Assembly: GCA_015179125.1 (NCBI GenBank)
Contig: WHVA01000182.1
Location: 62,001 to 126,000 of the forward strand
Direction of reading: 5' to 3'
Source: Gautieria morchelliformis
Lineage: Eukaryota > Basidiomycota > Agaricomycetes > Gomphales > Gomphaceae
DNA: 64,000 nucleotides
Position numbers and translations under genes: made by a program
In this document: one piece after another, positions 3,365-64,000 of the stretch
Numbering within the stretch: position 1 is the stretch's first letter
How the letters are laid out: the number at the start of each line of letters is the position of its first letter
The notes under the pieces: generated by a model
Database searches by the model: none
Seen by the model: the letters and a program-made list of their open reading frames with translations, nothing else
Told to the model about the DNA's origin: nothing

Positions 3365-4256
3365 GGATGTACAGCCCACCCAACCGATTTCCTTTTCGAG
3401 CGAGGCCCAAAAATAGCAATTAGGGCCAGGATACTTCGGCGATTCCCCTTTAGGGCTTCGACGAGATATTGTCTCTAAGTCCTTCCATAGGAGTTGGGGT
3501 GGCATGGCGTGGGGTAAGAATCAAAACATGAAATATAAAACATAAAACATAAAACATAACACATAACACATAACACATAACAAAAATAAGACAAAAAGGG
3601 TACTTTCACTTGGGTTGAGGTTTTATCGCGTCTGCCAGGCGCACGAAGAGGACCGACCATTCACCGACCCTCCCCTCCCTCGCTGCGCTCGGGGGGTCCC
3701 CCGAACCGGGTCGGTTCAGGTCGGCGCGCTAAAGCCTCGTTCGTGCATTCCAAATAGTATGAATGCTTCGTGAATTTAACCGCTCCATGATATAAGCAAA
3801 AGTGAATTAAGCAGCAGCAAATTTTATTAATGAAAATCTGCGAAGCAAAAGACTATCGCGAGAACCAACCAACGCCCACAAACAGCATAACTAACGCTCA
3901 GACCACTGAGTCACATTAAGAATTGGGGGAAGGAGGCAAAGAATGGCATTTCTCTAGCACGTGCTTTCCTGGAAACATTTTTCATAAGATGAAAGCCGCG
4001 AGCTTTGTGGTTCCACGGTCTTCAAAATGTTTGACGCCCTTTAGAGTTCCATAGGTTGACCTTTCGTGCACATTTGTAGTGAGCGCGGCTGGGATTAAGT
4101 AAGACACAGTTGTCTGTATTGTTGTGGACAATGCCGAAGGACTCAGAGACAATATCTCGTCGAAGCCCTAAAGGGGAATCGCCGAAGTATCCAGGCGCTA
4201 ATTGCTATTTTTGGGTGTCTCTCGAAAAGGAAATCGGTTGGGTGGGCCTTAAATTC
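3365..4256. mobile_element. Mutator-like (MULE) non-autonomous element
   Basis: An 892-bp element has inverted repeats of about 119 bp (3365-3483 against 4138-4256) and is flanked by the perfect 9-bp direct repeat TTGGCAGCG at 3356-3364 and 4257-4265. Long TIRs with a 9-bp target duplication are the Mutator signature. The outer TIR bases begin GGATGTACA and GAATTTAAG, then share GCCCACCCAACCGATTTCC. The centre has no transposase; it carries an (AAAACAT/AACACAT)n tract near 3528-3580. Reading frames here are by-products of the TIRs. It lies in the gypsy RT region and is younger than it. Confidence 0.75.
3528..3582. repeat. A-rich heptamer microsatellite
   Basis: A run of AAAACAT and AACACAT units sits just inside the left TIR of the Mutator-like element. 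Confidence 0.7.
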
Positions 4257-39297: not shown

Positions 39298-39361
39298 CAT
39301 CAGGAAAAAAAGAGGGTGGTACTTAGCTTTACATAGTGCACATAGCACGTTTAGTGCGGTA

Positions 39362-39535
39362 GCACCCCCCCCCCCTGTCACGTAACCCTCCATAGATGAC
39401 CGCCTGTCGCTGTAGCCCTCCATAGTGCGCTGTAGCACACCAACACAGCCCTGTAGCGCTCTGTAGTCTCCAGAGGGCATACGCTACGGGGCACTAGAGC
39501 GTCCACGTAGGGCTCCGTAGCGCTCCCCCCCATGG
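39362..39535. repeat. Poly(C) run and CGTAG/GTAGCG-rich block
   Basis: A run of 13 C (about 39366-39378) is followed by repeated short words CTGTAGC, CTCCATAG, CCACGTAG and GTAGCGCT. Similar words occur at 57640-57770, beyond the 3' end of Plavaka B. These may be subterminal repeats of a Plavaka-type element, but I could not match TIRs. Confidence 0.4.
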
Positions 39536-39688
39536 CAGCGTGGTCCATAGGTATGCCAATACGGCCTGTACATTTGCATAGAATACCATCGCAGGGTTTT
39601 CACACCGGTATACACACGCAGTTGTAGTAGAATACTTGTATTCGGGCAATGTATCAATTACATGGGTGATAGTTGACAGGCAAGCCAA

Positions 39689-41078
39689 CTAACTATCCAA
39701 CTCCTTGTCCTCATCGAGTGCCTGTGTGGCGCGAGCGAATTTGGCGGCATTGAAAGCCGGCTTTCGAGGGTTCGTGGGGATGTTCGGGAATCCAGCATGC
39801 GCGCTGTAACAACATACAGGAGGTAAGATAATTGTATGACCCAGTGCAGAAGAAGGCACCATCCGTGATCATGCATGCGCTGCTTGTGGCGCGCCAGGGC
39901 CTGTCCTGACCTTTCACTGTACATACGCCACGCCTCAAGGCCGCGGAGGTGTCGTCGGTATACCTTGGCGTATCCGACCTCGGTGAAATTGCTACCCTTG
40001 ATGTGGATGCCAGAGGTCCACTGGTGAACTGCATAGTAGACCTAGTTGCATACTGTTGGACAGACAATGTGATGACAGAAGGGTTTAGCACATACCGCTG
40101 TGAAAACTAAGGCGATGGTGGACTCGGGAATTGGGTTGAATGAAGCGCCGTATATTATGCCGTCGGCTTTCTTTTTTTAGGGAACCACTGCTCAAGGACA
40201 ATGTCTTCGAGGATATGGTGTTGATATATTCCAATAGATGCCTCAACATCCTATGCCATGGATCGGTGACCGCTCGCATCATTAGTATAACGCACCTCAT
40301 AAACGTAACCGTCATCCTCAAGGAGTTGAGCAGCTAATGTCTTGTTATACTCAATTTGTCTAGGCTGCTGGCCATGCTTGAAGTTGTAATGTGATACAAC
40401 TTTGGTGACAACCTTGTCCTTGACCCGCCCTCGAATCGTCGATCCTCTGGCTGTTATCTAGAGAACGCATGGATGATCGTTGGAAATATGAGGCCCTGCA
40501 ATAATTGGAAGTTCTTACCAGCGTAGTCAGACGTGGGGTTAGTGGGTGCACTTCGCCCTTGCGGTCACACGCATTTTGCCAACATTCTTCGGCCCATTCC
40601 TCGCACTCATCCATGTCCGGAAATGCATTCTTGGTGCAAATGCGAACCTGAAACTCTGTCATAGCCATAGTCAATATACTGTTTGCCAGTCCCTCATATT
40701 CTGCGGCTTTCGGCTTTTCCTTCTGAGTTTTCCTGATCTTCTGGGGGCATTCGGGATCGGTGTTCTTGCTATTGGAGTCAGAGTCACTATGGGTAGCATG
40801 CCTGTCGTCAGACGTGGCCCCGTGCACCCATGTTTGACTACTCGTTGTCGACTGGACGCAATATCAGTGTGAATCAAAGAAACAAATGGAGGTCGCACCG
40901 CTGTGTCCATCAGGTCCACCCGGCCCTGTTTCTTGTGGTTCCGGTCAACGGCACCACTGTCAGGATGTGGAGGCGGTGAGGACACATATGGACGGTCATG
41001 TGGTAGGACCATGTCGGGAGTCACAGACCGGAGGGGAGCGGGTGAGCTGGCTGTCTGGCGCCGAACCGCGTTGGACAT
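39689..41078 (-). CDS. DUF6532 family protein (gene A)
   Basis: Six exons on the minus strand: 41078-40899, 40851-40519, 40457-40296, 40250-40096, 40041-39860, 39803-39689, with introns of 45-61 nt and GT...AG ends. The N-terminus is Ser/Pro-rich and disordered. The DUF6532 domain starts near AEYEGLANSILTMAMTEFQV and includes AFPDMDECEEWAEECW, RVKDKVVTKVVSHYNF, LLEDDGYVYE, FNPIPESTIALVFTAV and KVYRRHLRGLE. Full length is about 375 residues. Exon 4 is one base short of frame in a T7 run at 40172-40178 (an A run in the mRNA); this may be an assembly slip or a real lesion. The molecular function of DUF6532 is unknown. Confidence 0.75.
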
Positions 41079-41207
41079 AGCCGGTTTCGCAGCAGTTGTC
41101 ACTACCGCTGTTGTGGCCTTGAAGGTGAACTTAAGAAGAGTCGAAGGTTGGGGTGGGGTGAGTCGATGTGAGAGAGGAGTGGGGGCAAGAGAAGAGTGGC
41201 GAGGTGA

Positions 41208-41312
41208 GAGAAGAGTCGAAGGAAGAGAAGAGTCGAAGGAAGAGAAGAGTCGAAGGAAGAGAAGAGTCGAAGGAAGAGAAGAGTCGAAGGAAGAGAAGAG
41301 TCGAAGGAAGAG
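41208..41312. repeat. 17-bp minisatellite, about six units
   Basis: The unit is AGAGAAGAGTCGAAGGA. Since 17 is not a multiple of three, any reading cycles through the frames and repeats every 17 residues. It lies about 130 bp upstream of the chosen DUF6532 A start, on its 5' side, so it could sit in the promoter or 5' UTR. Confidence 0.9.
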
Positions 41313-41339
41313 AAAACAGTTAGTCCAAAAAAAAAAAGA

Positions 41340-42260
41340 CTTCGTGTGGATGACGCACCTCATTCTCCTGAATCATTCCTGTACCAAACCGAACACAAAC
41401 ATTAGAATATATTTGGGGCTGAAGGCCATGGGAATGCTTACAGGGATGAGGCTCAGGTTCGTCCTCGGAATCATTGGCATTTGGGTCGTCGAGGAAGTCT
41501 TTGATATCCTCGTCCCCTAGGCCTTCGGCAGGGTAGACTAACCCAACGGCTCAGGGGAGATGTACATACTAGGACTGAAATAGCTGTCATAAAAATATCC
41601 GTAAGCTATCACTGCCATCACAATACGCCGAACCGCCGTATATACACCGTCCCGTGTCTCACACATACCTTTGCCACATCACCCACATCTACCCGAGTCC
41701 ACACACACGTCCGCACGACATATCATGTTATTCCCACCATTCTACTGATCCGACCCTGACCCAATGCCCACGGATCCACTCAACCCGAGTCAGAGCCCGA
41801 GCCTGAGGGGCGCTGATCCACGGAGGAGCTAGTCATTGAGCCACACGTCTACATATCTTCCATGTTATTTCCCTCATTAATTCACAACCCATATTTCTGA
41901 TGCATATGACTACCTACACCCCTTCCCATTCGATACATCAATTCCCTAGCTACTGCTGTCCCCGGACCACCGTACTCCCGAGTCCAGACGCATCAGTCGA
42001 CCCATGCATTACCCCTCCACTCTTCACGCCGCAGCACACCTAGTAGCTAGTTAAATAGTTCAGCATGTGTACAAAGATTCTCTAGTCAATCAGAACTCAC
42101 ATTGAACTGTATAGTTGTTTCACTACGCATAGAACTGCGTAACCGCTGCTCGAGAGGATACACAGGCCATGTTTCCTCTATACTCTCATATCTATAAATC
42201 TGCTCGATTCGACTTCAAGCCAAAGTCTGAATCTAAAACCCCTTCATTATCAGCTGCTCT
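41340..42260. other. No recognisable gene
   Basis: Pyrimidine-rich and A/T-mixed sequence between DUF6532 A and LINE-E. I see no supported coding region or element ends. Confidence 0.4.
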
Positions 42261-42269
42261 TAATCTTTC

Positions 42270-43501
42270 TCAATGGCGACCCGTGTTTGAAGTACGAGTA
42301 CCCTCAGATCAAAACGAAGCCATAGCAGAGGAACGGAGGGACCAGGCAGACATCAAAGTCTACACGGACGGATCGTTGATAGAAGGCGGAGTGGGGGCTG
42401 CAGTGGTGTTGTACAGAAGGGGAGTGGAGGAGAGAGTGGCAATAACATACTTGGGGACAGCGGACGACCACACCGTCTTCGAAGCTGAGCTGCTGGGCGC
42501 AGCAATGGGGGTGAAACTGTTCTGAGGAGAGCAACACGGTCACCACACCCTAGCACTTGACAATCAGGCAGCTACTCAAACTACGAGAGAGGAACGCGTG
42601 ATACCCAGCCAGTACCTCATAAACACCCTCCACGAGCAGATGGATGCGATCAGGGTCAGAAGCACAAGAGAGACTAGGGTGACCGTGAGATGGGTGCCGG
42701 GGCACAAGGGGCTTCAGGGAAACGAGAGGGCAGACGAAGAGGCGAAGAGAGCGGCCAGAGGGGAATCTACAACTGAGACGGATGTGCCAATGTCGTGCAG
42801 AGGAGAGCTCCCAGTCAGCAAAGCTGCAGAATTACAGAGGCACCACCAGAGGCTGAAGGAGCAAGCCAAGGAATTCTTCAAGAGGTCACCAAGAGCCAGG
42901 CACCCCAATGACATAGACCCGTCGATGCCGCCGCCAGCATTCGCGAAGCTATGTAGGGGACTCACACACAGACATAGCTCGCTCTTGATTCAGCTCAGAA
43001 CTGGCCATGTCCCGCTCAATGGATACCTGACAAGATCGGAAAACCAGAGACCCCACGTGCCCAGCATGCCTCTGTGACAATGAAATGGTACACCACTATC
43101 TTATCCAGTTCCCAGCATTCAAACCCCAGAGATGTCAACTGGAAAAGAAACTCAAACGTGGCGCCAGGTCCCTCAGGACGCTTCTATCCAAGCCCAAAGC
43201 AATGAGGCCACTTTTTCAGTTAGTTAACAATACGGGAAGGCTCAGGAGCACCTTCGGAGAGGTATCGCTGCCAGAAGAACAATGACAAGGGCGATAGATC
43301 AGCATAAATGATGGGAGCAATGTACTACCTCACTTCAGCAGCAAGCACGGGCAGCTCCGGGTTCTACCCAGGCCCAGGAGTTTATGTGGAGATAGAAGTG
43401 AAAGGAGTAGATAGATTAAAATGTGTTGACCGAACTCATGTATGCCTCGTCTTACATAGGGCCTGGCCCCACAAGACATAAATTGGAGAAAAAAAAAAAA
43501 A
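42270..43501 (+). mobile_element. LINE-E, 5'-truncated (RNase H to poly(A))
   Basis: It begins around the sequence for WRPVFEVRVPSDQN and continues through RNase H (VYTDGSLIEGGVGAAVVLY, HTVFEAELLGAAMG, WVPGHKGLQGNERADEEAK), the C-terminal part and a 3' UTR, ending in an A13 run at about 43488-43500. One TGA near 42523 stands where an Arg codon is expected, and two or three frame breaks follow after 43030. The 3' UTR carries the family stem-loop (43458-43470). The 5' edge and target duplication are not resolved. Confidence 0.85.
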
Positions 43502-43949
43502 GAGAAAAGCTCATAGCTCAACAAATCCCCCATCAATAAACCGCAACACCCCCCGTGCCCCACCACTGCCCGCAGGGTCCACACAAATGCATCCCTTGAA
43601 GGAAGGTCGTGGAAAGCGAAAGGAGGGCGGGTGAAAAAGTGACAGGAAAGGTTGGTTCGAGTGGGCATAATAAGCACAGGTGAGAAAAGAAAGCAAAGAG
43701 GAGCATGTGCTGCCATCTGACCCCATCTCACTCGCAACCGAATCTTCAGTGGCGTGTGATCATATCAGCGACGTGAAGATTCTGTAACTTTCTTTGACAT
43801 TCCTTTCCACCCATTGACGGTTAACGACAATTTACCGCGACGGCTCGAGGAAGGAATGACACCACTGATAGCCTCGCTCGGGCAGAGAGGGCATGTGTGA
43901 GCTACCCTGTCGGGAGAGGGGTATCGAAACAGATACCTTGACGGGTATG
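43502..43949. other. No recognisable gene
   Basis: Between the LINE-E tail and the LTR piece. Nothing supported is seen. Confidence 0.4.
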
Positions 43950-44549
43950 TGTCAAGATTGGTTTTTAGGCATTAATATCGTGTATTAGTGAACACAGTGA
44001 ATGCCCGAATAACTTGTGCGAATAAGTATGCAGTTCGGCGAATAGGTGAACCAATGAATGTTCACAAGATAAGAGGGTTGCCCAAACGGAGCTCGCCCTA
44101 TCTACAGTAATAGCAAAATAGCCCGTGGCACTTGACGATGCAACGTGCAAGGTGTCACAGAAGGGCTGTCTCAGTAGCGACAATCCCTTCACCGGCGAAG
44201 GTGCTCCTTCGGAGCCCTTCGCCAACAGTACAGAAAATAGTTCGAAGGCTAATGTAATGAAGATGAAGTATGAGAACTCACCAGTGATGCCTAAGTCCTC
44301 TTCTGGTCGAAGATAGAAATCTCCAGGAGAAGGCTCAAGACGATGATCACAGCGAGGTCAAGTTTGCACAAGATGGACGACGTATGATAATTGAACCGGG
44401 GAATATACATGTGAATGCAAACTACTTATATCGAATGCTCGTAAGGTATCAGCAAATAGGAAAGAGGCCATCATGAGTCAGGGTTGGATAGGGGTGCACA
44501 GTCATGATACAACATAGATGAAATAAACATACAATAGAGTGAGAGAAGA
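43950..44549 (+). mobile_element. LTR fragment, same family as 2073-3103
   Basis: It starts TGTCAAGATTGG like the solo LTR in gypsy and matches its first ~600 bp at about 90% by eye. It ends where another LTR-like block begins, so its right part is lost. The differences between the two copies imply a separate and not very recent insertion. Confidence 0.75.
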
Positions 44550-45114
44550 GTGTAAGAACCCGGCCTTTGGCCGGTTACTTACCGGTATAACTTTCTTCCG
44601 AGCCCGAGCCTTGTGATATTCGTGCCCAAGTACATATGATCCTTATCCTGCGCCCAAGCCCGAGCTTAGAGCTCATATCCGACCTTGATCCCATGCCCGT
44701 ATCCCCTTAGTTACTGATTCCGTTCCATCACACATCATTCGTATATTACCTCGCCCTGACCTCGCCCTGACCTCCACTCATATGTTCGCCCCTGACTCGT
44801 ACCCTCGCTCGTATATAACCCCCCTTGTATACATTCCTACTCCTCAGTCTGAAAATCAACTATCATATAACTTCGATCCCTAGTTAGTTCTAAGCCTCGC
44901 CTCTTAAGCCAAACCTCGCCTCTTATTCATTTGCCTCCGAAGTTGGGACTCGTGCGTAGGGTCGGCGCAGCACATAAGCTGAAGCCTAGTCCCTCTCTGA
45001 CTTCCCCATCCAAACCTCGCCCCGTAACCTCGGACCTTACCTTGGGTTTCGCTCCCGACCTCGGTCAACCTTACGACGGATCGTATCGTAACAGTATTTT
45101 CAGACTGCTTACAC
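44550..45114 (+). mobile_element. LTR-like block, TGTAAG...CTTACA
   Basis: 565 bp with the 6-bp inverted ends TGTAAG and CTTACA, a CCGGCCTTTGGCCGG palindrome near its start, and TATATAA near 44813. It looks like a solo LTR of another family. The bases on either side (AAGAG and CCCTA) do not match, and the preceding LTR does not resume after it, so a deletion or recombination joined them. Confidence 0.5.
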
Positions 45115-45115
45115 C

Positions 45116-45448
45116 CTACGTATCCCTTTTCTTCACTATGTCCATGATGACTCGTTCCCGCACCCTTCGGGGTATATCAGAACAATGACGTTTCTCGGAA
45201 GCCCCAGACTCGAGACCTTTTGCTGTGAGACGACCACGCGAACCTTCATGGTTGGGAGTGGCAGCTTTGGCTTGCGGCCCAACCGGCGACGAACAAGTGA
45301 GGGGTCTCGAACGATGTTCGCGACCCCTGGAGTTCGTACTGCTGTAAGTCAATGTTTGCTTTGGCACTGTGGAGCGCGCAGGGAGCTGGGTCAAGTTGAT
45401 CTCTTGCAGAGCTTTCCTTTTGGAACCAGGTGGAGGCATTGAAACCAA
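45116..45448 (-). CDS. Divergent reading frame beside Plavaka A, like DUF6532 B N-terminus
   Basis: A 110-codon frame starts MVSMPPPGSKRKALQEINLTQ, 117 bp from the Plavaka A start and pointing away from it. LQEINLTQ is close to LKEIDLTQ in the first exon of DUF6532 B, which sits in the same position beside Plavaka B. The rest is Ser/Arg/Pro-rich and disordered. An LTR block ends at 45114, and 4 kb of inserted elements separate this frame from DUF6532 A on the same strand. It may be the stranded first exon of that gene or of a lost copy. Confidence 0.45.
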   Translation of the reverse strand: MVSMPPPGSKRKALQEINLTQLPARSTVPKQTLTYSSTNSRGREHRSRPLTCSSPVGPQAKAATPNHEGSRGRLTAKGLESGASEKRHCSDIPRRVRERVIMDIVKKRDT

Positions 45449-45565
45449 GAAGTTTGCAGTGAGTGGTGGTGGTCAGGAATCAGAAACGACGCAGCTTACC
45501 CTGTAACCAGTCACATGACTGTGCTGGACAATGGGCATAGAAGGCCGAGGGACCTGTACTAAGTT

Positions 45566-48500
45566 ATGTCTCCTCCTCGAGCCGGTCAATTGCATTTGTG
45601 CCGCACTTGTCATAGGGTCTGCACGTCGAGGAAGCCTCTGCGCTTGCATATCTTCCACAAGGACTCCTGTAGGCTGGCAATACCAGGGAAAAAGAGGGAA
45701 ACCCAGCCAAAGAAAAAGATATGCACCGATGCCACCGAGCCTGCGGATGCCCTTGAGGATGATCCTCCAATGGACTGGGCTGAAGGTGTCTCACAGGACA
45801 TCTTACCAGAGGAAGCACACACTTTCCGAGAGGGAAGGCACAGGCACGATGAAGTTGGTGAGGGATCCCACAGCTCCGACCATACCCCACACAACAACGT
45901 CTCAGACAGTGATGTAATGTGGGTAAAGGACTTCCCAGAACCTGCCGGAGTCTCTTATGGAGAGCAGAAGACTACCTTTGAGGTTTTGCGTGAAGAGCAG
46001 CGCACGGGCAGCTTGGGAACATTTGGTCCTTTCGAAGACCTGGCCGAGTGGGAACTGGCTGAATGGTTAATAAAGAGTGGTGCCAGCCAGAGAGAGATCG
46101 ACAAGTACCTGAAATTAGACATCGTAAGTTGCATTTAATACAACCTAGCCGTGTATGTGCACTATGCTAATGCAAGTGCAGACACGCAACTGCACCTGCC
46201 CTTCCTTCATGGATAAGCAGGGTCTACTAAAAAAAATTGACTCCTTACCACCTGCTCCCTCCTGGCAATGTCACACAGTGCAGGTTAATGGGGATGTCCA
46301 TGATTATAATGGTGAACGCCGGACAGAAGAATTATTCATTTGGTGCCGCAACCCTGTGGATTGCGTGAAGGAGTTGATTGGTAATCCAGCTTTCAAAGAG
46401 GCCATGCATTATGCACCTCAAAAGGTCTTCACCGACTTGACTGAGGCAGATCAAGTGTTTAACAAGATGTGGACAGGAGAGTGGTGGTGGGAACTACAAG
46501 TAAGTATTCCAGCTTTCCCATACGGCGCTCCATTTGACCCTTTCGCAACCAGGAAAAATTACCCAAAGGGGCTACAATCGCCCCAATAATCATTGCATCA
46601 GACAAAACCCAACTGTCCTAATTCAGTGGTGATAAGCAAGCATGGCCGGTGTATCTCACAATTGGGAACATTGACAAGGCCATCCGTCGGCAGCCTTCCA
46701 AACAAGCCATGGTTCTCCTAGGATATCTGCCAGTAACCAAGCTTGAATGCCTGTCTCCAGAACGTCGCAAAGAGCGTGCATATCTGTTATTTCGTTATTT
46801 TGTTGTTTCGTTGCCTTGCCAAAATGGGAAGGACCGGGAGGAGTCTGCACATTAACTCGAGTGCAGGAGATGTAGGGAAAAGAACTTGAGACTGATAGTG
46901 AGGACACTGTTAACTCCCTCAACCGGACTCAACAATGTGAGTGAATGGGCTAAAACCAATGATTTGTTGTAGCTAAAGTCCTAGCTACTTATACAGTGGT
47001 GAACAGGGGAAAACCCTATGGAACATTGGATTAGGAGTGCATACATCACTAATGATGTCAATGATGATGCTGTGTGCCCCTAGGAGGATAATCCATTGAT
47101 GATGATGTATGCCCCTAGGAAATACCCCTCTAGAATCCAATAACAATATCGTCTCTTCCACTATTGCATGTCCCTTATTCTGGAACCTCTGATTGCTGCC
47201 GGCAAACACGGGGTTTATATGACATGTTCCGACTCTCAAGTACGCCACGTCTTCCTCATTTTGGCATCATACATTGCCGACTACCCAGAGAAATGTTTAG
47301 TGGCAGCCATCCGTGGAAACTCATGCCCAATCTGCACTGTCTCACCAGATGACCGTGGAAATCCAGGGTGTGCCCCAACTCACAATCCTAGCACCATTCG
47401 AAGCTCGGAAATGGGGACACCATCTCCAGCATTTAAGAATCTGCATCTCCGTCCCATTCCCCAGCCATTTGGGCTGACCTCCCACACACCAATATCTTTG
47501 AATGTTTCACCCCCGATTTGCTCCATCAACTACACAAGGGTGTCTTCAAGGACCATATGGTGAAGTGGTGTATTCAAATTGCTGGGAAAGGGGGTGCGCA
47601 GGAGGTGGATGACCGATTCAAATGTCTTCCAGACCACCCGGGTCTACGCCACTTCAAAAAGGGAATCTCTACGATATCTCAGTGGACTGGCCGCGAGCAC
47701 AAGGAGATGGAGCGTGTATTTGCAACCCTGATTTTTGGTGTGGTACCACCCGACGTGGCCGCTGTTGCACGAGCAACTATTGACTTCATATACTATGCAT
47801 CTTTCCCATCCCACTCCACAGAAACTCTCCGACGCCTCCAGGATTCACTGCACACATTCCACGAGCACAAGGGCATCTTCATAAAAGCAGGCATCAGAAA
47901 GCACTTCCGAATCCCAAAGATCCACATTATGGAGCATTACGCACATCTCATTCGAGCCAAGGGTTCTGCAGATGGCTTCAACACAGAAATGTCAGAACGG
48001 CGTCATATTGACTGTGCGAAGGAAGGGTACCGGGCAAGCAACAAGAAGAACTATACCCAGCAGATGATCCAGTACCTTTGGCGTCAAGAAGCCATGAACA
48101 AATTCACAGCATTCCTCACATGGACAAATGCAACCCACCCAGTCATCAATAGGAGCTATGACGAGGATGGTGATTCATCCACAGACAGTGAGACATCCAG
48201 CATGGATGACCAGTTGAACTAATATCTCACACACATGGCACCTGCTGGCACATTGCCAAACAAGCTCCAATGCCCGGAACATCCCTTCAGGACCTCATTG
48301 AAAAACATGGTGCCGTGGACATTGTAGCGGCTCTAGCCATGTATCTTCGCCAATATGTGCCGAATTGCCAAATCACACCATCCACATTTGACCATGTTGA
48401 CGTATACACTCGCCTCTACATCGACCTTCAATCCCCCAACGCCTTAATGATGATATCCAAAAAGATATCATCCGAGCGTGCCTAGCTAGCTATTCTCCCC

Positions 48501-48995
48501 GGAAGAAGTGTTTGGTCCCTGCACTATTTGACACTGCATTAATACATGATACACGGGATGCAGAGGAGATCGGACTCAAAGGTACGAGTTGCAACCCTGC
48601 CATGCGACCGCTCCTCACCGTGATGTATAGGGTACCGAGCTGCTCGCATACGCGCCATTTTCCGTTTGCCACACTGGTTCGAATGCTCAGACACGCTGGC
48701 TTATATTGAACGATTCACCAACTTTACCTTGCCTGTTGAGCCACTCCGGATGTCCCAAGTCTCCTATTCCATGCGTCATAACCGGCGACACGGAGAGATA
48801 GTCCACGTGAACACAATCCAACGCAGCTGTCATCTCACCCCAAAGTTTGGCAGTGCCAAACACCGCAACCAGACATGGACATCAGAAAATGTCCTAGATG
48901 AATGCCAAACATTCTTTTTGAACTCACAGCTTAGTATCTATATGTTTCAGATGTGTGACGGTGATTTTGTAGTAGAGAAAGATAATCATACCTAA
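45566..48995 (+). pseudogene. Plavaka transposase, copy A
   Basis: Residues near the start form a C2H2-like finger (CRTCHRVCTSRKPLRLH). Then DDPPMDW, EWELAEWLIKSGASQREIDK, an intron at about 46124-46181, the IWCRNPVDCVKELIGNP region, an intron at 46500-46552, then IIIASDKTQLS and SGDKQAWPVYLTIGNI, LLGYLPVTKLECL, the [13 protein letters not shown] core (about 47520), [32 protein letters not shown], and a C-terminal part ending near 48995. These are the Plavaka (CMC/CACTA-like) hallmarks. Lesions: TAA at 46619-46621 (from CAA), a ~365-bp insertion at 46793-47158, a one-base loss near 47470, TAA at 48220-48222 and frame breaks near 48240 and 48430. Confidence 0.85.
46793..47158. mobile_element. 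~365-bp insertion in Plavaka A
   Basis: It breaks the Plavaka coding sequence between the YLLF and HY codons. It contains a TGTTG...CAACA-bounded block (46803-46936), LTR-like by its ends, and a repeated GATGATG(N)TGTGCCCCTAGGA motif (47064-47120). The family is not recognised, and no clear target duplication is seen. Confidence 0.5.
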
Positions 48996-49377
48996 TAACG
49001 CTATAGTAGGACTAGCCATGCGGACGGATATGCAAAGGATGCGAGTGCGAGTAGTGAAACGAGGGAAATGGGTGTCTTGCGCTATTGACCAGCAAAGGAT
49101 TAAGGAGATGATGGTCATATAGATATATAGGAACACACCTCGGTCTCGGTCATGACTACACCCTGCGGCAACCAAGCTTTGAACATGCCTTCGCTTCTGA
49201 AGTCCTGACTCGTGTCGTTATACCCGAGCAATTGAGAAGGGTCGTGAGCATGGTATTCACTGGGTTATCCAAGTCATGAGATTATGTGCACACGGTCTAA
49301 TGCAATCCAGGCTCACGGAAGATGAAACTGCATCGGTCGAGGATATACATGAAGAAGTGGAGAACTGGGAGCATCTC
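48996..49377. other. No recognisable gene
   Basis: Between Plavaka A and the P450 remnant. The right end of the Plavaka element should lie here, but I could not identify TIRs. The P450 haem-binding exon was also looked for here without success. Confidence 0.35.
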
Positions 49378-50118
49378 TCAAAGGCTGTAGAGCCAGAAGG
49401 TAATTGAATTGTTCCAGAAGAATCTCCTTGACGCAATAGAGTGAAGGCGACGATAATATGGGTTAGAAAAGAGACCTACAAAACAGTGGCCAACCCAAGT
49501 ACCTTTTAGCATCCCGGGCGTGAACAAACGCTCAGGCTCGAAGTGTTCAGTATTGGGCCCGTACATATTCTTGTCATGGAGCATTGCCCTTTCGAGACAA
49601 CACTGCCTCGGGGGATAAAGTTGTTGTTGTACACATCATCTTCCATCAACCTGTGTGCAACACCCAGCGGCACCACCGGACGCCATCTAGTCCAGAAAAA
49701 TTTATTTGTCAACTCCTGGCTTTCAGAGAATCAGTTAGGGCACCTTTGTATTTCCTTGCAAATAGCATTCATATACGGAAGGCTATCGCGGTCCTCAAAG
49801 GTAGGGAGCCGATCGGCGCCAATAACTTCGTCGAGCTCGCGCTGCGCTTTGCGCTGTACATCGGGATAAAGGATCATGGCGAAGATAAACCAGGATAGGG
49901 CGACAGTCGTCTAGAGCAGTGACGTGAATGGTGTACAGAACATAAGGAAAAGAAATCGTTCGTACAGTGTCAGCTCCCGCGAGATACGCAACAGCTTGAG
50001 TGCTTTGGATGGCTTCCTCTTGTTGCGGCACATCCGCCTCTGGTAAATCAGCGATACTTTCTAGAAGCGAAGCGGTGTAAGAGGGTATAGCTTTCACTTC
50101 CCTCTTGATTGGACTCAA
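49378..50118 (-). pseudogene. Cytochrome P450 remnant
   Basis: Reading on the minus strand: SYTASLLESIADLPEAD, then the I-helix LAGADT split by an intron (about 49970-49915, GTACG...CTCTAG) and continuing TTVALSWFIFAMILYPDVQ, the stretch up to SLPYMNAICKEIQR (ExxR of the K-helix), an intron at about 49754-49698, RWRPVVPLGVAHRLMEDDVY, FIPRGSVV, and MLHDKNMYGPNTEHFEPERLF. This is a microsomal fungal P450 (monooxygenase) core. A short loss between GSVV and MLHD shifts the frame. The N-terminal membrane anchor and the FGxGRRxCxG haem loop are missing, so it is non-functional. Confidence 0.75.
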
Positions 50119-51180
50119 TTGACCGTGAACAAAGTGGTGAAAGATTGACCCACCAAAGCACAGGTACGCAATGTATTGGTGTGTAGATGGGCGCTTGCGC
50201 TCTAGCCGACGATAGACGGCAGATGTCTATGGTAGAAAGGGCTGGGATATGTATCTAACATAAGATACATAGGGACGTTTGAGCACAGAGGACTACGTGG
50301 ACTTACGCAGCCACGCGCGCAACTACATGGGCGACGTGCGGGTAGGCGCCGCTACCAGGATTTCGGGTTTATCCTGATGTGTATCCACTGATTTTCGAAA
50401 GTGGCTCCAGCTAATGATTTCAGAAGGTGTCATTCCTGCTCAGTGACATGAGGCGCAATTCAGCTTGTGTCAAACTAGAAGCAGCCAATGTTTGTTTTGC
50501 GTAGCCACAGTTCATTGTACTTATCTTCCGATGGAGCTTAACGTTCATATAGGACATTCATATATGGCAGTGCCGCCAAATTGACGTGACAACGAAAAAA
50601 AAACTCCCTTAGTTTTACAAATTAGATCAATCGCTCTATACAATCGATCGATCTGACCTAAAGATGCACTTCGTAAGGAATAAGAAGAATCGGATTTTTT
50701 TTCAGCTGGAATTGCGATTGGACCAAAGTAGCCGTGTGTAAGTGACAGGCACCATACATTACGCCCGGGAGGATATTTCTTCAGCTGTGAGAAGGACTCA
50801 CGCCACAGAATGCCGTAGATTTGCAAATAGGTTTCGGCATGCGCTCGAGGACAACTGAGTGGTAATTCAGCGGAGTCCTAGAACCGTCCGTTCCGATTTG
50901 CGCGGGGCTTCTCGAGTCGCACCAATCCGGGTCGGGGTCCATGCGCTGCCTTGAGCTCACGATCCCCAGTTCCAACTGATTTTGATGCTCAAAGAATGGA
51001 ATTGAGTACGGTGCCCGACTAGTACCAGGTGTCTATTTCAAACGGCGGAATAGAAAGTCAAATCGAAATCAGGGACATCAAAGCCCAGCCTACATGCCAT
51101 TGTTCAGAACGAATCCATACAGTACTTGCGGTTACGGTTATTTTATCTTACGCCCATTTGCTTGCACAGACGCCGGTGCT
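50119..51180. other. Intergenic between P450 remnant and peroxygenase
   Basis: Some decayed P450 exons may extend to about 50250. The rest shows no supported gene. The last part is the 5' region of the peroxygenase gene. Confidence 0.4.
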
Positions 51181-51256: not shown

Positions 51257-52810
51257 ATGACGCGTCTCACCACTATTCTTCTGCTCATCTTTACCTTCGC
51301 TGCCCACCTGACTGAAGTGCTTGCCTTTCCTGCGTACGGCAGTCTGGCAGGTCTGTCGGAAGAGGAGCTTGCCATGTTTATCCCGACACTGGAGATCCGT
51401 AAAGGTCCTCCCCCTGATATTCACGCCAAGCCAGATAACATAGGCGTCCCGGTACTTGTCAATGATGCGGACCATCCGTATGTACCACCTGGCCCTGACG
51501 ATATTCGAGGACCATGCCCTGGTCTGAACACACTTGCGAACCATGGAGTGCGTATCACATCACCCCACGTTACTTCCTTGTAATTGGTCAGACTCTAATT
51601 ATCTCGCAAATCGTAGTACTTACCCCACGACGGAGTGGCATCCCCTAAACAAATCGTGGATGCCGTTATGACTGCTATGTGCTGTTCGTGTATCGCCCTA
51701 TTTTTTCTTTTAACATTATGTGCTAGGATTCAATATGGGCGCTGACATCGCCGCGCTGGTTGCCTATGCGGCCCATCTAGGCGATGGCAACTTGCTCACC
51801 GATAAGCTCAGCATTGGTGGAGCTCGGGATGGCAGTCGTGGCCTGAATTATCACGGCACATTTGAGGGTGAGCTTGTTTCGCTATGTACAAGTATCAAGC
51901 TGACGGTTATATGTTCTTAGGGGACGTAAGCATGACACGAGGCAAGCCATCGGTGACATGGGTTTATCAGACAATCTATACTCATCTTTCTCTCCAAGGC
52001 GACGCGTTTTTTGGCGACAACTACAGTTTCAATGAGACTCTCTTCCAAAAGGTAAGATGCGCATAGGCCGAGCGAATGTTACACCACTCATGAAGCATCC
52101 CACAGATGCAAGCTGAAGCGGATCCCATCTTTGACACGTTCAATATCCGTAGCGCCGCCACACATCGTTTCAAGCGTATCAACGATGGCATCAAGGGCAA
52201 CCCCAAATTCGCCTTCAATCACATCCGCTATCCTGCCGGTTATGCTGAGTCTGTCTTTACATACCTACTTTTCAGACACCCGTGGACGCCACTGCCAGCA
52301 GTCAAAATGGACGTCATTCGTACTTTGTTCGAAGATGGAAAGATGCCCGACGGTTTTCACCGCGCCCCCCTACCCATCGGGATGCTCGAAATTGCAGCGG
52401 AAGTCGTAGCGCTATGGGGTCAATACCCCATCGTCCTACCTGGACATAACGTGGACGGTATCGACACTTACAGGATTGATTGGACTTCTCCAAGTCTCAT
52501 CACCTGGTGCTGGATCTACGGGGACTATATCGAAAACACGGTGCTCAAGTTGTATCCTAACCCCACTGGCGCATTGCGCACGGCCTTGAAACGTAATCTC
52601 GTATTCTTCCATCTGCCATTTGGGGAAGTAGGCTGTCCGCCGCTATTTCCCTATGGCCCGCCTCTATCAGAGGCCGAAGGCTTGATTGATCAAGCAGAGG
52701 TCAAGGGCGTGGTGGATCAAACGCAGGCGCCCGTATCATCAGGCTGGTACAGCGGGTACAGCGGCCGCGTCTGGGACGCCCTGGTGCGCACCATGACGTG
52801 TTGGGCCTGA
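51257..52810 (+). CDS. Unspecific peroxygenase (haem-thiolate peroxidase), long type
   Basis: Exons: 51257-51547, 51617-51674, 51727-51867, 51921-51941, 51999-52051, 52106-52810; 422 residues. Residues 1-23 form a signal peptide. PCP at 86-88 gives Cys87, the axial haem ligand. E163-G164-D165 and S167 form the Mg site. R229 and E236 (R-x6-E in RYPAGYAE) are the acid-base pair, the full PCP-EGD-R-E signature of long UPOs. C-terminal Cys residues (GCPP, TCWA) could form the usual disulfide. A secreted enzyme that uses H2O2 to oxygenate substrates. Intron 4 has a GC donor. Intron 2 needs a CT donor at 51675-51676 where GT is expected, so splicing may be impaired. The start was chosen for the signal peptide; an ATG at 51242 is also in frame. 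Confidence 0.88.
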
Positions 52811-57312: not shown

Positions 57313-57910
57313 AATACGTTAGCGAGGAACGAAGGGTGAACCATTTGGGGGCGGTTTGGTACTGGACAATTTCGGAAGTGAATGGTGTCGGACGCTCTCA
57401 GAGCTTGACAGATTTTGGAGGCGTCCTTGGGGACCGTACGATCGCTGTCCGCTGAGGGTGTAATGCTGAAACGGGACGTGGGGCATTGGAGGGTCTAGGC
57501 AAGCTTGAAAAGTTGGGAGGGAAGATGGATTGGAGGGACAAGTATCGCATTTGGAGATCAGGTAGCGCTGCTTTGGGAATGGGAACAAGTCGACAAAACT
57601 GCATGCATCAGGAACGGCCGATTCCGGCTTGTAATTTGGCCATATTTACGCAGCGCCACGGGCGCTACTAGTAGACTACGTCACCTACGTAGCTGACTCT
57701 GGGTTCCACGTAGCTCCACAGATCATTATGTGGCGCTGCTGCCCGCACTAGGTAGACCTACAGCTTCCTATCTTTCTATAACTCCCATACGGCAGCGGCA
57801 ACACCCCTGCTAACCAATATTGGCAAGGTATGTCAGGTGCCAGTTACTTGGATAAGGTCAAGGAGTGTAGGTTGATATCACGTAGACATCCGGCGATAAG
57901 TACTACGTTC

Positions 57911-58225
57911 TTTTTACTCTGGACTCAACTAGTAACTGACGGAAAACACCTTATCATCAAGGTAGCCTCTTCTCTCAAACGGCTGCCTGATTGTTGCATA
58001 TCAGATACGAGTGTCATGCTCTTATGGCAGCGGCCCAGGTGCATGTGGTTCGCGTTCATTGTCTTTTTACTCTGTACTCAACTAGTAACTGACGGAAAAC
58101 ACCTTATCATGAAGGTAGCCTCTTCTCTCAAACGGCCGCCTGATTGTTGCATATCAGATACGAGTGTCATGCTCTTATGGCAGCGGTCCGGGTGCATGCG
58201 GTTCGTGTTCATTGCTGCACTTCAC
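57911..58225 (+). repeat. 163-bp tandem duplication
   Basis: Two copies begin TTTTTACTCTG at 57911 and 58074 and differ at under ten sites. 163 is not a multiple of three, yet one frame stays open through both copies by small compensating differences. Confidence 0.8.
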
Positions 58226-58521
58226 CACCAGCTCAAGACGGGCCAATTGTTGTACGAGTGCCGTGGTTCCGTTTGACTGATTGCGACGCTTACATCCCTT
58301 CCCTCCGCCGACGCGCGTTGATTGTTTCCGGCCTTGCAACATCGCGCGGGGCCACAAGACTCCCTTTCTTCAGTCCGGAAGCTGTCATACTCCTCATCCT
58401 CTTTGATTCGCCACGATACTTCCCCAAGTTCTTCCTGTTTGAACCTTGTGGAACCCATTCAGATGGGCTGCGTTCCACGTTCGATCTTTCAAACGTATCC
58501 ACAGAGCTCAACGAGCTGGGA

Positions 58522-58576
58522 ATTTCCTCCTCGCTCACCCACTTGCTCGGAAGTGGGTGTCAAGCGAGGAGGAAAT
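58522..58576. repeat. 23-bp stem hairpin
   Basis: ATTTCCTCCTCGCT (58522-58535) pairs with 58563-58576, and CACCCACTT (58536-58544) pairs with AAGTGGGTG (58551-58559). The 6-nt loop is GCTCGG, and a 3-nt bulge TCA lies on one side. Confidence 0.85.
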
Positions 58577-58669
58577 ATATGGATGAGGCTGCAAACCTCA
58601 GTGAGAGACATGTGGGATAGTTCAAGTAATGGGAGCGTGGGCTACTAGAGAGGTACGTTTATGGTGATT

Positions 58670-61600
58670 TTATGATACATTGTTGACTAATACAAAGTCT
58701 CTATCGCAAAGTTGAAACATGTATATACTCTGGTGCGAATTTAAGAAGAAGAAGTGGCTGCGTTTTTCAAGCACTGTTCGTGCAGTCCAACCTCTATCTC
58801 GCTGGTGTGGCTTGCCAAAGCTGGGAGTCAGAGCACAACTGCGCCGAATGGATGAGATCGGAATAACAGCGGCTTGACGGCGACCTTGGCGCATGGCGTA
58901 TGACACTCGCGACATACGCAATGGGACAACTGGCGGTTTGAAAGGTGTGAACCATTCAATGTAAGCAAGAGTATCAGTACACCCGAACCAGGAAGGTGGG
59001 CGGAACAGAGCATGGACACGCGCTGCACGATACCCTAAACAGACGTGAGTGTGAGACCATGATCACATTCCCTGGGTCCGAGACACACCTTTGATTCCAA
59101 CATCCTCTGCCACACTGTCTTCATGGACAAGAACGCAATCAAAATGGTCTGGCTCCGACTTCTTCCGTCCAGGATTCGGATGACCTGGTGTTGCTCGGAT
59201 CGTGTCGCGCTGGGTCTCATCAGTAAGTCGTTGGGGCGATGGGATGTCAATGATGATTTGTTTGTAGACATCCACGAAATCATATACCGAGGCGGTGACA
59301 CAGCCCTTTGGGACATGAGCATTCAGGTATGGCTGGAGCGCTGGCACAAAATCCACGGCACCATGGTTGTTGATGAGAGTTCGAACAGCAGTTTTTGGCC
59401 ATGGTGCACGCTTGGTGATGCTCCATGTGGGTGCACCAGCAGCGACCATAGCGGCTGGTACTTGTTCCACTGGCTCCTGGGCTTCGTCTGCTTTATTGGA
59501 ATCGGACTGACTATCTGGGATGGCGTGGGTCCAAATGAGAAATGCTGTGAATTTGTGAATGGTGTCACGACGTGTAAGGTATATCACCATTTGTTCAATG
59601 TAATTTTTCTTGTTACTGGACCAATAGCCCTCTTTGGCAAAGTCAATGTGCAGGCGCTCTGAAAGTTCCGTATTAAACCCATCAGGTGTGCCTTTTGCTC
59701 AGATGAGAGCAATATAATGCTCCATCATATGAATCTTGGGGATTCGGAAGTGCTTGCATATCCCTAGCTTCACAAAGATCTCTTTGTGCTGGTGGAAGGT
59801 ATCGAGGGCATCTTGGAGCCTACGCAAAGTCTCAGTAGACTGTGAGGGATATGATGCGTAATAAATGAAATCAATGACAGCGCGAGCGACTGCGGTCACT
59901 TCTGAATGGACAGCACCATATGTCAGGCTTGCAAAGATGCACTGCATCTCTTTGAATTCACGGCCTGTCCACTGCGTAATAGTAGATATTCCTTTCTTGA
60001 AGTATAGCAGGGTCGGATGATCTGGCATGCACTGGAACCTTTGATCAATTTCTGCTGCACCCGCATGTGTGAGACACCATTTCACAAGATGGTCTTTGAA
60101 TACACCCTTGTGAAGTTGGTGCAGGAGGTCAGGCGTGAGGCATGAAAAAATGTCCATATGAGGCAGTTCGGCCCAGAATGGTTTGGGGATTCGTCGGAGG
60201 CCCAGCCGTGTATATTCTGCTGAAAAGACTTTGGTAACCCAGTCCTTGAGAGCACTGAGCGTACGAGCAGAGTCACGAAATGGTGCATGGCTGGGCTCCC
60301 CCCGGTCATCAGAGTCAATTTCGCAGATCAGGCAATTGGTCGGCTGGACCCCAACAATGAGGCATTGCTTGGGGAAGTCAGCAATATATGCAGCCAAAAT
60401 TGGGTAGACCATGTGAATGTGCCGGTCAGCACAGGGCATTTGGACTCCTTTTTTGCCGGCCTCAATTAGTGGTTCCAGGAGGATGGACATAACATAGTGA
60501 AAGAGTCTAAACCCAGCTCCTTTCCGGGAATGTTCATGGAGACACTCAAGTTTCATGACAGGGAGGTATCCAAGGAGTATCATGCCCCTCTTCAATGTCT
60601 GACGACGAACTGCTTTACAGATATTACCAATTGAGATATAAACCGGCCAGGCTTGTTTGTCTCCACTGAATTGCGAGAGTTGGGTCTTGTCTGAAGCCAG
60701 TATCACCGGTGCGATGGTGGCGCCGCTTGGCAGTTTCTCCTGGATTGCACAGTGTTCTCAGGTATAGTCCCCCCAAATTACTAGTGCCCGCACCTGCGTA
60801 TCCCACCACCACTGCGCAGTCCACATCTCATTGATAATCTCTTCTTCCTCAGATTCATCACTGAACAAGCGTTCAGGGACATATTTCATGGCATTGCAAA
60901 AGTCCGGATTCCCAATTAACTCGCCCACACATTCAACGGGATCACGACACCATATGTCAAGCTCTTCTTCCATTGGGTCGCCATTCTCATCGAGAAAATC
61001 ACCTTTGACAGTGATTGTGCGGCAATTCCATGTGGGGCCTTGGGGTAACTTATCAATCTTTTGTAACAGGGTTCGGTTATCCTTGTACGAAGGACCCATG
61101 CGCTCGCGTGTCTGCAGAAGTGGTAAGTTATGCCATATTGTATATTTCATGTGCCAAAAGACCCACAATATCCAGATGTAGAAAGCGGTCGACCTTCGTT
61201 TGACTGGCGCCACTTGTCATCAGCCAGTCAGCTAATTCCCATTCCTGTTGGTCCAGGAATGGTCCAAACATGCCAAAATTGCCAGCTTTCTACTGCTGTC
61301 GCAATTGCTCAAACACCATGTGGTGCGTACCTAACGATGTTCCCGCAGGCTCATCAAAAGCTCGGCGAAACAGCTCATCAACATCATCCCTGACCTCCTT
61401 AACCTGTTCATCGGACCCCTGGGGGTGTGTCTGAGGACAGGGTGTGTCGAGTGGCGCTTCGCCCATAGCACCATGCCCCCATCGGCTTTCATGGTGCGCA
61501 TGCGCCTCTTCTTGCAAGGCGGCTTGCCCACCCGCATCTAGATCTTCCTCCCAATCCATAGGTGGATCATCGGAGAGGCTATCATGAGCTGCGGTACGGT

Positions 61601-61799
61601 CAGTTCGCATCTGTACCATCCCCAAACGCTTCTTTTTCTTATCCAGGGCTTTCCGGCATTCACGGGAATAGACCACATGAAGCCGCTGGGCCTTCCGAGA
61701 ATAAAAGGCCCTGTGACACACCCCACATTGGAACACATGGTGTGCATGCATGGCCAACACTCGCAAGTTTTCGCATTGAAATTGGAGCCGGGCTTGCAT
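58670..61799 (-). pseudogene. Plavaka transposase, copy B (near intact)
   Basis: The N-terminus has a C2H2-like finger (CGVCHRAFYSRKAQRLH). Then DDPPMDWEED, EWELADWLMTSGASQTKVD, an intron near 61160-61100, LDIWCRDPVECVGELIGNP, an intron near 60785-60735, [98 protein letters not shown], and the C-terminal part to 58670 after an intron near 59070-59040. The transposase would bind and cut the element ends. Two nonsense codons stand out: TAG at 61292-61290 and TGA at 59701-59699 (CGA in copy A). Otherwise the frames join. DUF6532 B starts 53 bp away, divergently. Confidence 0.88.
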
Positions 61800-61851
61800 C
61801 CCCGTTCACCAGACATGTGACCGGTTTCGGCCTCCCCAGTTTGTTGTTTCT

Positions 61852-64000
61852 TTGTCTCGAACCATCACACTCATACAATTGCCAGCTCGACGTCCACTCA
61901 AGGAAATTGATCTCACACAACAACAGAAACACAAGATCTCTACTAACAATGTGATTGCCAAACCGAAGACCCAACCTAAACTCGCTGGGCCGGCTTCTCG
62001 CAGCCGTGAACGCATCCAAGCCAAAGATGGACTGACAGAGAAAGGACACGAATACCGTATGTTTCCCTTTGCTCATAATGCTCACTATGTACATTTCCCT
62101 TGCAGGACAACAACTGGCTGAGGAAAAAGAATGGAAGGAACGCAACCAACGCAAGAAAGCGGCCCAAGCGGCACACAACAAAAAGAGCCCACATCCCAAA
62201 AACCGTCTGCAGACGACGCTATCAATCCTAACCAGTCCCATCGGGCCCCGCCCCCAGACGTCATTCGCCCTCGCTGTGACCGCCAAGACCATGAGACAAA
62301 CAATGATGGGGAAAATGACGAATATCCCACCGGAGAAGAGGACAATGAGGAGGAGATGGAGGAAAATGGTATGTTGTCACTCAGCTGCATTGTGCGTGGT
62401 ATGATGAAAATACCTTGTCCTAGGGCCCATGTCCGCACATGAAGCAGCCCTGGAGAGCGAAGTACGCCCCGTCTTATGATTCCACTGAGTGGATCTTTCA
62501 TCTCCCTTGCAGTTCACTGCCCCTCGCGACTTTGAAAGGGCACGCCTGACTCAACGCCATGGGAGCCAGCACACAATTGCGGCCAGCTCACCAATCCCCT
62601 CCAGTCAGCGTGATCGTGTCACTGTCCCTGCGGGGACAGCGACACGATCATCCCCTGGCACACGGGGAAGCTTGAGAGAGAAAACGGGCATTGCGCACCC
62701 CACTCTTCCACATGTGAGCCAGCACTCAATTGCGGCCGGCTCGTCAATCTCATCCGGTTGGCGCAAGGTTGTCCCTGACCCGCCGAGTGGCTTTCGAGAG
62801 ACGACAGCCATCACTCACCGAAAAATACCAGCACTCTATTGTGGCCAGCTCGTCAATCTCGTCCGGTCAGCGCCAAGTTGTCCCTGACACGCTGGGTGCC
62901 TTTCGAGAGACGACAGCCATTACTCACCGAAAATCCCTGGTCTCCCTAGAGGACAGCAGCAGTGAAGAAGTAACTCTTTGGTTGATAAGATGGTCACTGG
63001 ACTAACCTGGACTTGCGCAGGATACTGCCCCCGCTCGAGGTCTCAAACAACCTCGAACGATGTCCCCAAACTCCGACCCAGAGTCAGAGACACCTGCAAA
63101 CCAAGCGGATGATCCTGTGGAAGAAGACACACCTGCCGAACGCCAACCCAAGCGTCAATGTGACCGTAAAGGACGTGCCCGCCCTAGGGCATTGGATTAC
63201 GAGGGTTTGGAGAAAGGTGTCTTGAAACTGGCGCAGGCCGAATTCCAGGTTCGAGTGTGTACGGAGTATGCGTTCCCAGAGGAACAGGATGTCGACATTG
63301 AGACCTGGGCCACGGCATGCTGGGACAACGCATGTGAGCACAAAGCTGTCAAATACGAGATGAGCGCTGCCCACACACATCTGGTGAGCACCAGACCCGT
63401 GGTAACTCTTACACTAATGTAGCCAAACACTACAGATTGTGGAGCGCGTTTCAACGATCTGAGGGTGTGTCAAAGACAAGGTAGTGGAACGAGTGGCGAG
63501 TCATTATGGGTTTAAAACCACCAATAAAGACTATGTGATTCAAGCCAACAAAGAACTTGCTGGGAAGCTCTTAGAAGACGACGGGTACATCTTCAAGGTG
63601 CGTAACCCTGCTCTATCCTACTGCTACCTATCAATGCGCCCACAGGACAGCCACAAGCATGGGCATCTATGAGCATCCCATCCTTCAGGATGTTATCAAT
63701 GCCCAATGGTTCAGCAAAAAAAAAAAATCCGACGGCATAGTATTTGGCAGTGCGTTCAACCCCATCCCGGACCCTGTGATTGCGCTTGTCTTCACTGCGG
63801 TAGGTCACTGCCACTCTGTCTAAGCCCTTGCAATTCACGAAATCTATAGGTGCAGTACGCGATCAAACAGTGGGCATCCGGGTTTCTTGTCAGTGGATCC
63901 CAATTCAGCGAGGTAGACTACCATGACATGTACAAGCATCATCTCGATGGCTTGGAGCAATGGCGCCACTTCAGCACACGAACCGCCCAAGCTCTGGCCC
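61852..64000 (+). pseudogene. DUF6532 family gene B, runs off the window
   Basis: Exon 1 is 61852-62056 (LKEIDLTQ; no ATG seen in this frame, so the start is unsettled), the intron 62057-62105, then a Lys/Arg/Gln-rich exon, an imperfect internal repeat (62560-62930), and the DUF6532 domain from about 63190 (LDYEGLEKGVLKLAQAEFQV). Exons 63436-63597 (162 nt, the same size as in gene A), 63646-63799 and 63850 onward, with introns at 63384-63435, 63598-63645 and 63800-63849, match gene A position for position. Damage: TGA at 63460-63462 where gene A has CGA, and the exon 63646-63799 is two bases short. It shares a short divergent promoter with Plavaka B. Confidence 0.7.
62560..62930 (+). repeat. 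Imperfect in-gene repeats of DUF6532 B
   Basis: Three diverged units share words for SQHSIAASSSIS and FRETTAITHRK. Units two and three are most alike (about 110-120 bp), with a one-base frame difference between them. Confidence 0.65.

Follow-up and report, generated by a model that had tools for sequence, protein, structure and literature searches.

A divergent DUF6532 gene as the probable second gene of PlavakaB-type transposons in Gautieria morchelliformis

The stretch analysed here, called the window, comprises 64,000 nucleotides of the basidiomycete Gautieria morchelliformis (contig WHVA01000182.1, positions 62,001 to 126,000; G000:C207:62001-126000). It holds two DNA transposons of the Plavaka group, elements A and B, each with a transposase gene (Pfam PF18759) and, pointing away from it, a gene with the DUF6532 domain (PF20149). 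A first-pass annotation, made from the letters of the window, had proposed that Plavaka carries DUF6532 as a second gene. This proposal is borne out in the genome of the fungus (122 Mb, 1113 contigs), the single genome from which all counts below are taken. In this genome, DUF6532 regularly accompanies the transposase in one Plavaka clade, and it is almost certainly the second gene of a cut-and-paste transposon of the PlavakaB type, in which both genes move as a unit between inverted repeats. The features of the two elements are collected in Table 1.

Table 1. Features of Plavaka elements A and B, in window positions
Feature	Position	Strand	Details
Plavaka element A	39298-50379		11082 bp, nested insertions included; ends CATCAGGAAAAAAA...GGTTTATCCTGATG; flanks AGA / TGT, which do not match as a target-site duplication
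DUF6532-side array of A	39298..39547		7 YRTAGS per 250 bp, interior 0.59; transposase side 1
DUF6532 domain exons of A	39862..40722	-	a 40519-40722, b 40296-40457, c 40090-40250 (frameshifted), d 39862-40041
Nested insertion(s) in A	41530..45209		about 3.7 kb, absent from relatives L013 and L028
Start of N-terminal exon, DUF6532 A	45386..45439	-	MPPPGSKRKALQEINLTQ
Plavaka transposase of A	46206..47470	+	PF18759 matches, three pieces
Plavaka element B	57606-64531		6926 bp, window holds 57606..64000; ends CATCAGGAACGG...CGTTTTTCCTGATG; flanks TG / TG
Terminal inverted repeat of B, transposase side	57606..57617	+
Transposase-side region of B	57606..57855		4 YRTAGS per 250 bp, interior 0.31
Plavaka transposase gene B	59063..61799	-	PF18759 at 60074-61087
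N-terminal exon of DUF6532 B	61879..62056	+	PARRPLKEIDLTQ... LTEKGHEY; 3' end is a GT donor by reading
DUF6532 domain exon a of B	63174-63383	+	PF20149
DUF6532 domain exon b of B	63436-63597	+	162 nt; contains one stop of the aligned domain (placed by reading)
DUF6532 domain exon c of B	63646-63799	+	154 nt, two fewer than L025
DUF6532 domain exon d of B	63850-64029	+	window holds 63850..64000
DUF6532-side array of B	64282-64531		outside window; 6 motifs
True right end of B	64531		G000:C207:126531, beyond window

Element B runs past the end of the window, and two copies elsewhere in the genome, L025 and L027, begin and end at points matching it. Its transposase matches PF18759 over the whole model with an E-value of 6.3e-119 in the genome search, and two of its frames give 2.9e-87 and 1e-31. 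A single TGA in the matched stretch, near 60758 and between model positions 99 and 101, falls where the matches of family F1 (one of five described below) show a gap of about 56 bp, and is therefore probably intronic. The divergence of the two genes of B was described correctly in the first-pass annotation, but their spacing is not the 53 bp given there; by reading, about 80 bp separate the first ATG of the transposase, at 61799, from position 61879, where the start codon of DUF6532 is placed. This position is TTG in B and ATG in L025 and L027. Judged from its sequence, the DUF6532 copy in B is degraded, with a TTG start, one stop and an exon c that is two bases short. A 109-bp tandem repeat is present in the element at 62719-62933.

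In element A, the DUF6532 domain lies far from the N-terminal frame on the same strand, as had been noticed, because the nested insertion splits the gene; the first-pass annotation had placed an LTR pair and LINE-E between the two parts. The similar motifs first seen as LQEINLTQ and LKEIDLTQ at the two elements are now explained as well, being the start of the DUF6532 protein in both.

Genome searches gave 133 exon matches for PF20149 (150 of 216 candidates scored) and 135 for PF18759 (123 of 277 candidates scored), both of which are lower bounds, and matches within 1.5 kb were clustered into 89 DUF6532 and 85 Plavaka loci. DUF6532 is found within 6 kb at 35 of the 85 Plavaka loci, divergent in 34 and in tandem in one. 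Enrichment next to Plavaka had been set beforehand as the check on which the proposal could fail, and in this genome it is strong: against the 35 observed, random placement of the 89 loci gives a mean of 0.76 and a maximum of 4 in 1000 trials. KDZ elements, which are large fungal DNA transposons too, were considered as an alternative carrier and were ruled out, since none of the 47 KDZ transposase loci of the same genome (PF18758; 91 matches merged by hand) has DUF6532 within 15 kb. Twenty loci were fetched and compared, resulting in copy families with sharp ends; five families are referred to as F1 to F5, and the same locus appears under two labels in three cases (L002 = L023, L003 = L014, L005 = L033).

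The second check proposed, whether terminal inverted repeats enclose both genes or the transposase alone, likewise did not refute the proposal in this genome. The ends that enclose both genes are terminal inverted repeats of the form CATCAGG...CCTGATG, or CATCAGT...GCTGATG in F4. Target-site duplications (TSDs) are present in 9 of the 11 elements with Plavaka and DUF6532 that were read at both ends: eight have equal flanks of 2 bp (L017, L020, L023, L024, L027, L011, L010 and B) and one has equal flanks of 3 bp (L025, whose first base is T and not C, so that it begins with TATCA), and the remaining two, L028 and A, have both ends and no TSD. Five further elements, picked solely by inward-facing repeat pairs, all have 2-bp duplications. 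Four of these five do not match the one stretch of the B transposase that was used as a query, and the fifth, L038, has a short match; the last DUF6532 exon or exons are kept in L034, L036 and L037, and none were found in L035 and L038. L034 to L037, 1.9-2.6 kb long, are deletion derivatives that keep both ends and have TSDs of 2 bp; remnants of DUF6532 are retained in three of the four, and none matched the transposase query. Among the other copies, exons a and b of DUF6532 were not detected in L027, nor exons b to d in L028.

Elements L017 (2333-8724) and L020 (1278-7670) are, when rounded, 100% identical along 6.4 kb, lie in unlike flanks and both have 2-bp TSDs, indicating a very recent transposition. 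Across the genome, the terminal word CATCAGGAAAAA is present 248 times and the reversed word 8 times. In a scan with exact words, which miss diverged ends, over the contigs numbered up to 525 (62 DUF6532 loci), an inward-facing terminal word lies 135-1260 bp downstream at 37 of the 62 loci and in the wrong orientation at none. The number expected is about 0.14. Seventeen of these 37 loci belong to the 36 that have no scored Plavaka within 7 kb, and they are likely deletion derivatives or elements with an unscored transposase.

The structure of the DUF6532 gene is shared among the families. The domain is encoded by four exons with three phase-0 introns, whose positions are common to families that are 27-61% identical in protein sequence (to the first alignment row). 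Exon b measures exactly 162 nt in all five families, and in F1, F2, F4 and F5 the length of exon c is 153-156 nt; the GT-AG borders are clean in these four, and exon c is frameshifted in the F3 copies read. The exon sizes that the first-pass annotation gave for the two window copies are correct. As a regular expression, the N-terminal motif LKEIDLTQ / LQEINLTQ is found in 9 of 17 element or locus sequences (4/4 in F2, 5/5 in F3 and 0/8 in F1, F4 and F5 together). The spliced domains match PF20149 in five of five cases, the first with 191.4 bits versus a cut-off of 24, and DUF6532 was their sole match in an hmmscan against Pfam with E-values up to 10, a search in which weak matches are removed by the HMMER filters. 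In F2, two pieces of the N-terminal exon are basic, with isoelectric points (pI) of 10.7 and 10.0. The five-family alignment was also compared with viral contigs (30 pattern matches) and genome contigs (14) from collections that are not fungal, and none of these matches was confirmed.

The ratio of nonsynonymous to synonymous divergence (dN/dS) was calculated by the method of Nei and Gojobori, omitting comparisons with few codons or with a dS of up to 0.02. For DUF6532, dN/dS is 0.083-0.113 at a dS of about 0.5 between L017 and L001, L014, L015 and L023 of F1, 0.133 and 0.136 between L025 and L033 and between L025 and L006 of F2, and 0.138 between A and L026 of F3. These low values between subfamilies (0.08-0.14) indicate that the DUF6532 gene is selected along transposing lineages, and the higher values of 0.31-0.77 in close copies (dS under 0.2) are as expected from decay after insertion. 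Within F1, dN/dS of the transposase is 0.21-0.32.

Maximum-likelihood trees were made for the 16 of 20 loci with enough of both proteins, leaving out L012, L022, L027 and L028. Both trees separate F2, F3 and F5 from F1 and F4 with a support of 100/100, and F2, F3 and F4 are each grouped in both. F1 is a single group for the transposase only; in the DUF6532 tree, F4 and the two subgroups of F1 branch from an open fork. The dS between the F1 subfamilies is about 0.5 in DUF6532 versus 0.22-0.32 in the transposase, and this unequal divergence of the two halves is a sign of exchange between elements. A mosaic look is also seen in the DNA of F1 (L017 and L024 versus L014, L015 and L023), where L017 and L023 are 91% identical in the transposase half versus 82% in the DUF6532 half. 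In elements of F4, repeats spaced by about 140 bp lie between the transposase and the DUF6532 domain (L010 at about 4363-4992, L016 at about 4077-5127 and L021 at about 5732-6634), and a 26-bp tandem repeat is present in L017 at 4944-5048.

Inside the ends, the short motif YRTAGS is repeated, chiefly as CATAGC in F1 and F4 and as YGTAGS in F2, F3 and F5. A search for subterminal repeats with 8-mers gave almost nothing, and was followed by shorter words and then by the degenerate motif. Motifs were counted in eight element sequences (two copies each of F1, F2 and F3, and one each of F4 and F5). The 250 bp at the DUF6532-side end contain 8 motifs in F1 (L017), 6 in F2 (B), 3 in F3 (L028), 11 in F5 and 10 in F4, with 0.3-0.7 per 250 bp in the interior, and the 250 bp at the transposase-side end contain 4, 4, 2, 4 and 5, respectively. 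In 2000 shuffles, the count of the DUF6532 end was never reached for four of the five ends, and that of the transposase end was reached 28 times for F1, 30 for F2, 458 for F3, 23 for F5 and 5 for F4. None of 3000 sub-windows taken from positions 1-39000 of the window reach 6 motifs, with a mean of 0.60. Twelve other DUF6532-side ends, which were not used in the choice of the motif, hold 10, 9, 1, 9, 8, 7, 10, 6, 6, 11, 6 and 6 motifs; 11 of the 12 thus hold 6-11, although several are copies within families and so not fully independent. The DUF6532 end is richer than the transposase end in seven of the eight sequences.

These features can be combined into a model of the element. As the sequences show, it has two divergent genes with a short common intergenic region, one for a DDE transposase that is read toward one end, the other for a DUF6532 protein of several exons that is read toward the opposite end, and it moves as one, leaving target duplications of 2 bp and sometimes 3 bp. 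In its most likely role, the DUF6532 protein may bind the subterminal YRTAGS motifs, chiefly those at the DUF6532 end, and this binding could help to assemble the ends for the transposase, regulate the promoter or silencing of the element, or both.

The plan recalls that of the CACTA/En-Spm elements, as these also have two proteins per element and subterminal arrays that are often asymmetric (in the present elements, the array is weak in L028 and has 1 motif in L013). The two En/Spm proteins arise by splicing of a single precursor. Unlike in CACTA/En-Spm, the genes are divergent here, the ends are CATCAG (TATCAG in L025) rather than CACTA, the TSDs are 2 bp long in 8 of 11 and 5 of 5 elements and 3 bp, the CACTA/En-Spm length, in 1 of 11, and the second protein is DUF6532, with no other Pfam match. 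No kinship with TNPA/Ptta (PF03004) was found by hmmscan of the five DUF6532 domains (E-values up to 10, weak matches filtered). According to the accessible part of PMC2613891, TNPA of En/Spm binds subterminal repeats and regulates the element, transposition requires both TNPA and TNPD, TNPA and TNP1 have little sequence similarity, and the arrays of soybean Tgmt* are asymmetric, with 4 repeats at one end and 24 at the other. CACTA-like transposases were placed with Plavaka in the CMCT clade by Kojima (PMC12730594, in part).

Among described Plavaka elements, those here are most directly compared with PlavakaB, for which the accessible text of Kojima 2025 (PMC12730594) gives a Plavaka transposase, 5'-CATCA..TGATG-3' termini and TSDs of 2 or 3 bp. 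Element B has all three (TSD TG), and A and L028 have the termini without a TSD. The extra gene differs: in that text it is a TET/JBP gene in some elements, and here it is DUF6532. No TET/JBP match was found among nine frames of element B scanned against Pfam, a partial scan of one copy. The string DUF6532 is absent from the main text of the same paper, whose family sequences sit in supplements where second open reading frames may go unmentioned. In the accessible parts of PMC12730594, PMC8290104, PMC9674265, PMC11075540, PMC7473861, PMC11244446 and PMC8955403, TET/JBP was the only second gene met inside Plavaka; PMC11244446 describes gene clusters of Amoebidium flanked by Plavaka transposase. 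Across the full text of 5.39 million open papers, a body that mostly excludes subscription papers, no link between DUF6532 and a Plavaka gene was found, and DUF6532/PF20149 is mentioned only in PMC8955403, which, in the part available, has DUF6532 and Plavaka in a list of domains restricted to parasitic and symbiotic fungi.

A role of DUF6532 as an accessory protein like TNPA stands at about even chances. It is suggested by where the arrays lie, by their often unequal density at the two ends and their form, which differs by family, and by the strong selection and a basic N-terminus, all of which fit such a role. The broader reading, somewhat short of even, is that DUF6532 would be a new accessory family that binds arrays, that a large Plavaka clade would be two-component like En/Spm, with a second protein whose sequence is unlike that of TNPA, and that the DUF6532 genes annotated in this and other mushroom genomes would be transposon genes. 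The finding itself assigns PF20149, which Pfam calls a domain of unknown function and which annotators treat as part of host genes, to a transposon gene and adds a second gene to Plavaka. It also offers a further case for the study of end recognition and for the escape from or use of silencing in two-protein transposons of the CMC type.

Several observations weigh against these readings. At 49 of the 85 Plavaka loci, no DUF6532 match lies within 7 kb, and the transposases of the four of these loci that were read, L029 to L032, share 29-39% identity with the two-gene clade in the long matches, so that not every Plavaka needs DUF6532. The counts are inflated by a Plavaka gene on contig C340 that was scored as two loci and by loci that are possibly allelic copies, and the exon borders are those deduced from conserved frames and GT-AG sites. 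As for the arrays, the motif was picked post hoc from element ends and has six bases, of which three are two-fold codes. The array of L028 is weak, its 3 motifs at the DUF6532 end being reached in 128 of 2000 shuffles, the end with a single motif is that of L013, in which the last 460 bp or so are inverted relative to A, and L027 has a tie of 6 motifs at each end, so that not every element is asymmetric. With a pI of 6.3, the DUF6532 domain as such is slightly acidic, a sequence search of the PDB with this domain gave no match, and an AlphaFold model of one window fragment (exon b of A, its intron and part of exon c) was uninformative, with a predicted local distance difference test score (pLDDT) of 46.6.

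Regarding the plain Plavaka family that lacks DUF6532, its copies L029 (788-4702) and L030 (790-4702) are 99% identical and have neither CATCAGGAA ends nor a recognised terminal inverted repeat; the ends of L029 to L032 could not be defined on comparison. Exon-match patterns that resemble L029 and L030 were seen on seven further contigs in the Plavaka genome search.

Other functions and origins of DUF6532 can be weighed on the same data. The gene could act against host silencing instead of binding ends, like the TET/JBP genes captured by Plavaka and other DNA transposons of fungi or the anti-silencing proteins of plant transposons. This is fairly unlikely, though fungal DNA transposons including PlavakaB do carry TET/JBP dioxygenases, for which an escape from silencing is argued in the accessible part of Kojima 2025 (PMC12730594), and DUF6532 is maintained by strong selection. 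An arms race could, however, give faster change than the steady purifying selection and conserved introns that are seen, and the deletion derivatives retain ends and arrays, which points to one or more proteins acting on the ends, though the transposase could be that protein. The two roles may also coexist, since TNPA both binds ends and regulates, according to the part of PMC2613891 available. If the transposase reads the motifs, DUF6532 might be a structural partner in its complex, helping, for instance, with nuclear import or the choice of target, which is judged quite unlikely. A C2H2-like stretch (FQCGVCHRAFYSRKAQRLH), seen by eye in the N-terminal frame of the B transposase and without a Pfam zinc-finger match, would suit such a division of labour, as would the arrays at the transposase end (2-5 motifs, and 6 in L027). 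The greater richness of the DUF6532 end in seven of eight sequences argues in favour of DUF6532 as the binder, although it is a matter of position and not a proof.

It is highly improbable that DUF6532 is a host family that was captured repeatedly, or a preferred neighbour of insertions, without a function in the element. For this origin speak 19 of the 62 DUF6532 loci on the contigs up to 525, with neither a scored Plavaka match nor a terminal word nearby; given the lower-bound searches and the exact terminal words, these 19 are not thereby shown to be host genes. The divergence in 34 of 35 pairs, the fixed place inside one end, the TSDs around both genes, the selection along lineages and the matching groups in the two trees all contradict it, and DUF6532 as a host gene or neighbour was rejected on the TSDs, orientation, selection and trees.

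Beyond element A, a frame on the plus strand at 52094-52810 of the window has a weak match to Peroxidase_2 (PF01328, E-value 5.6e-5, under the curated cut-off) and is perhaps a gene of the chloroperoxidase type.

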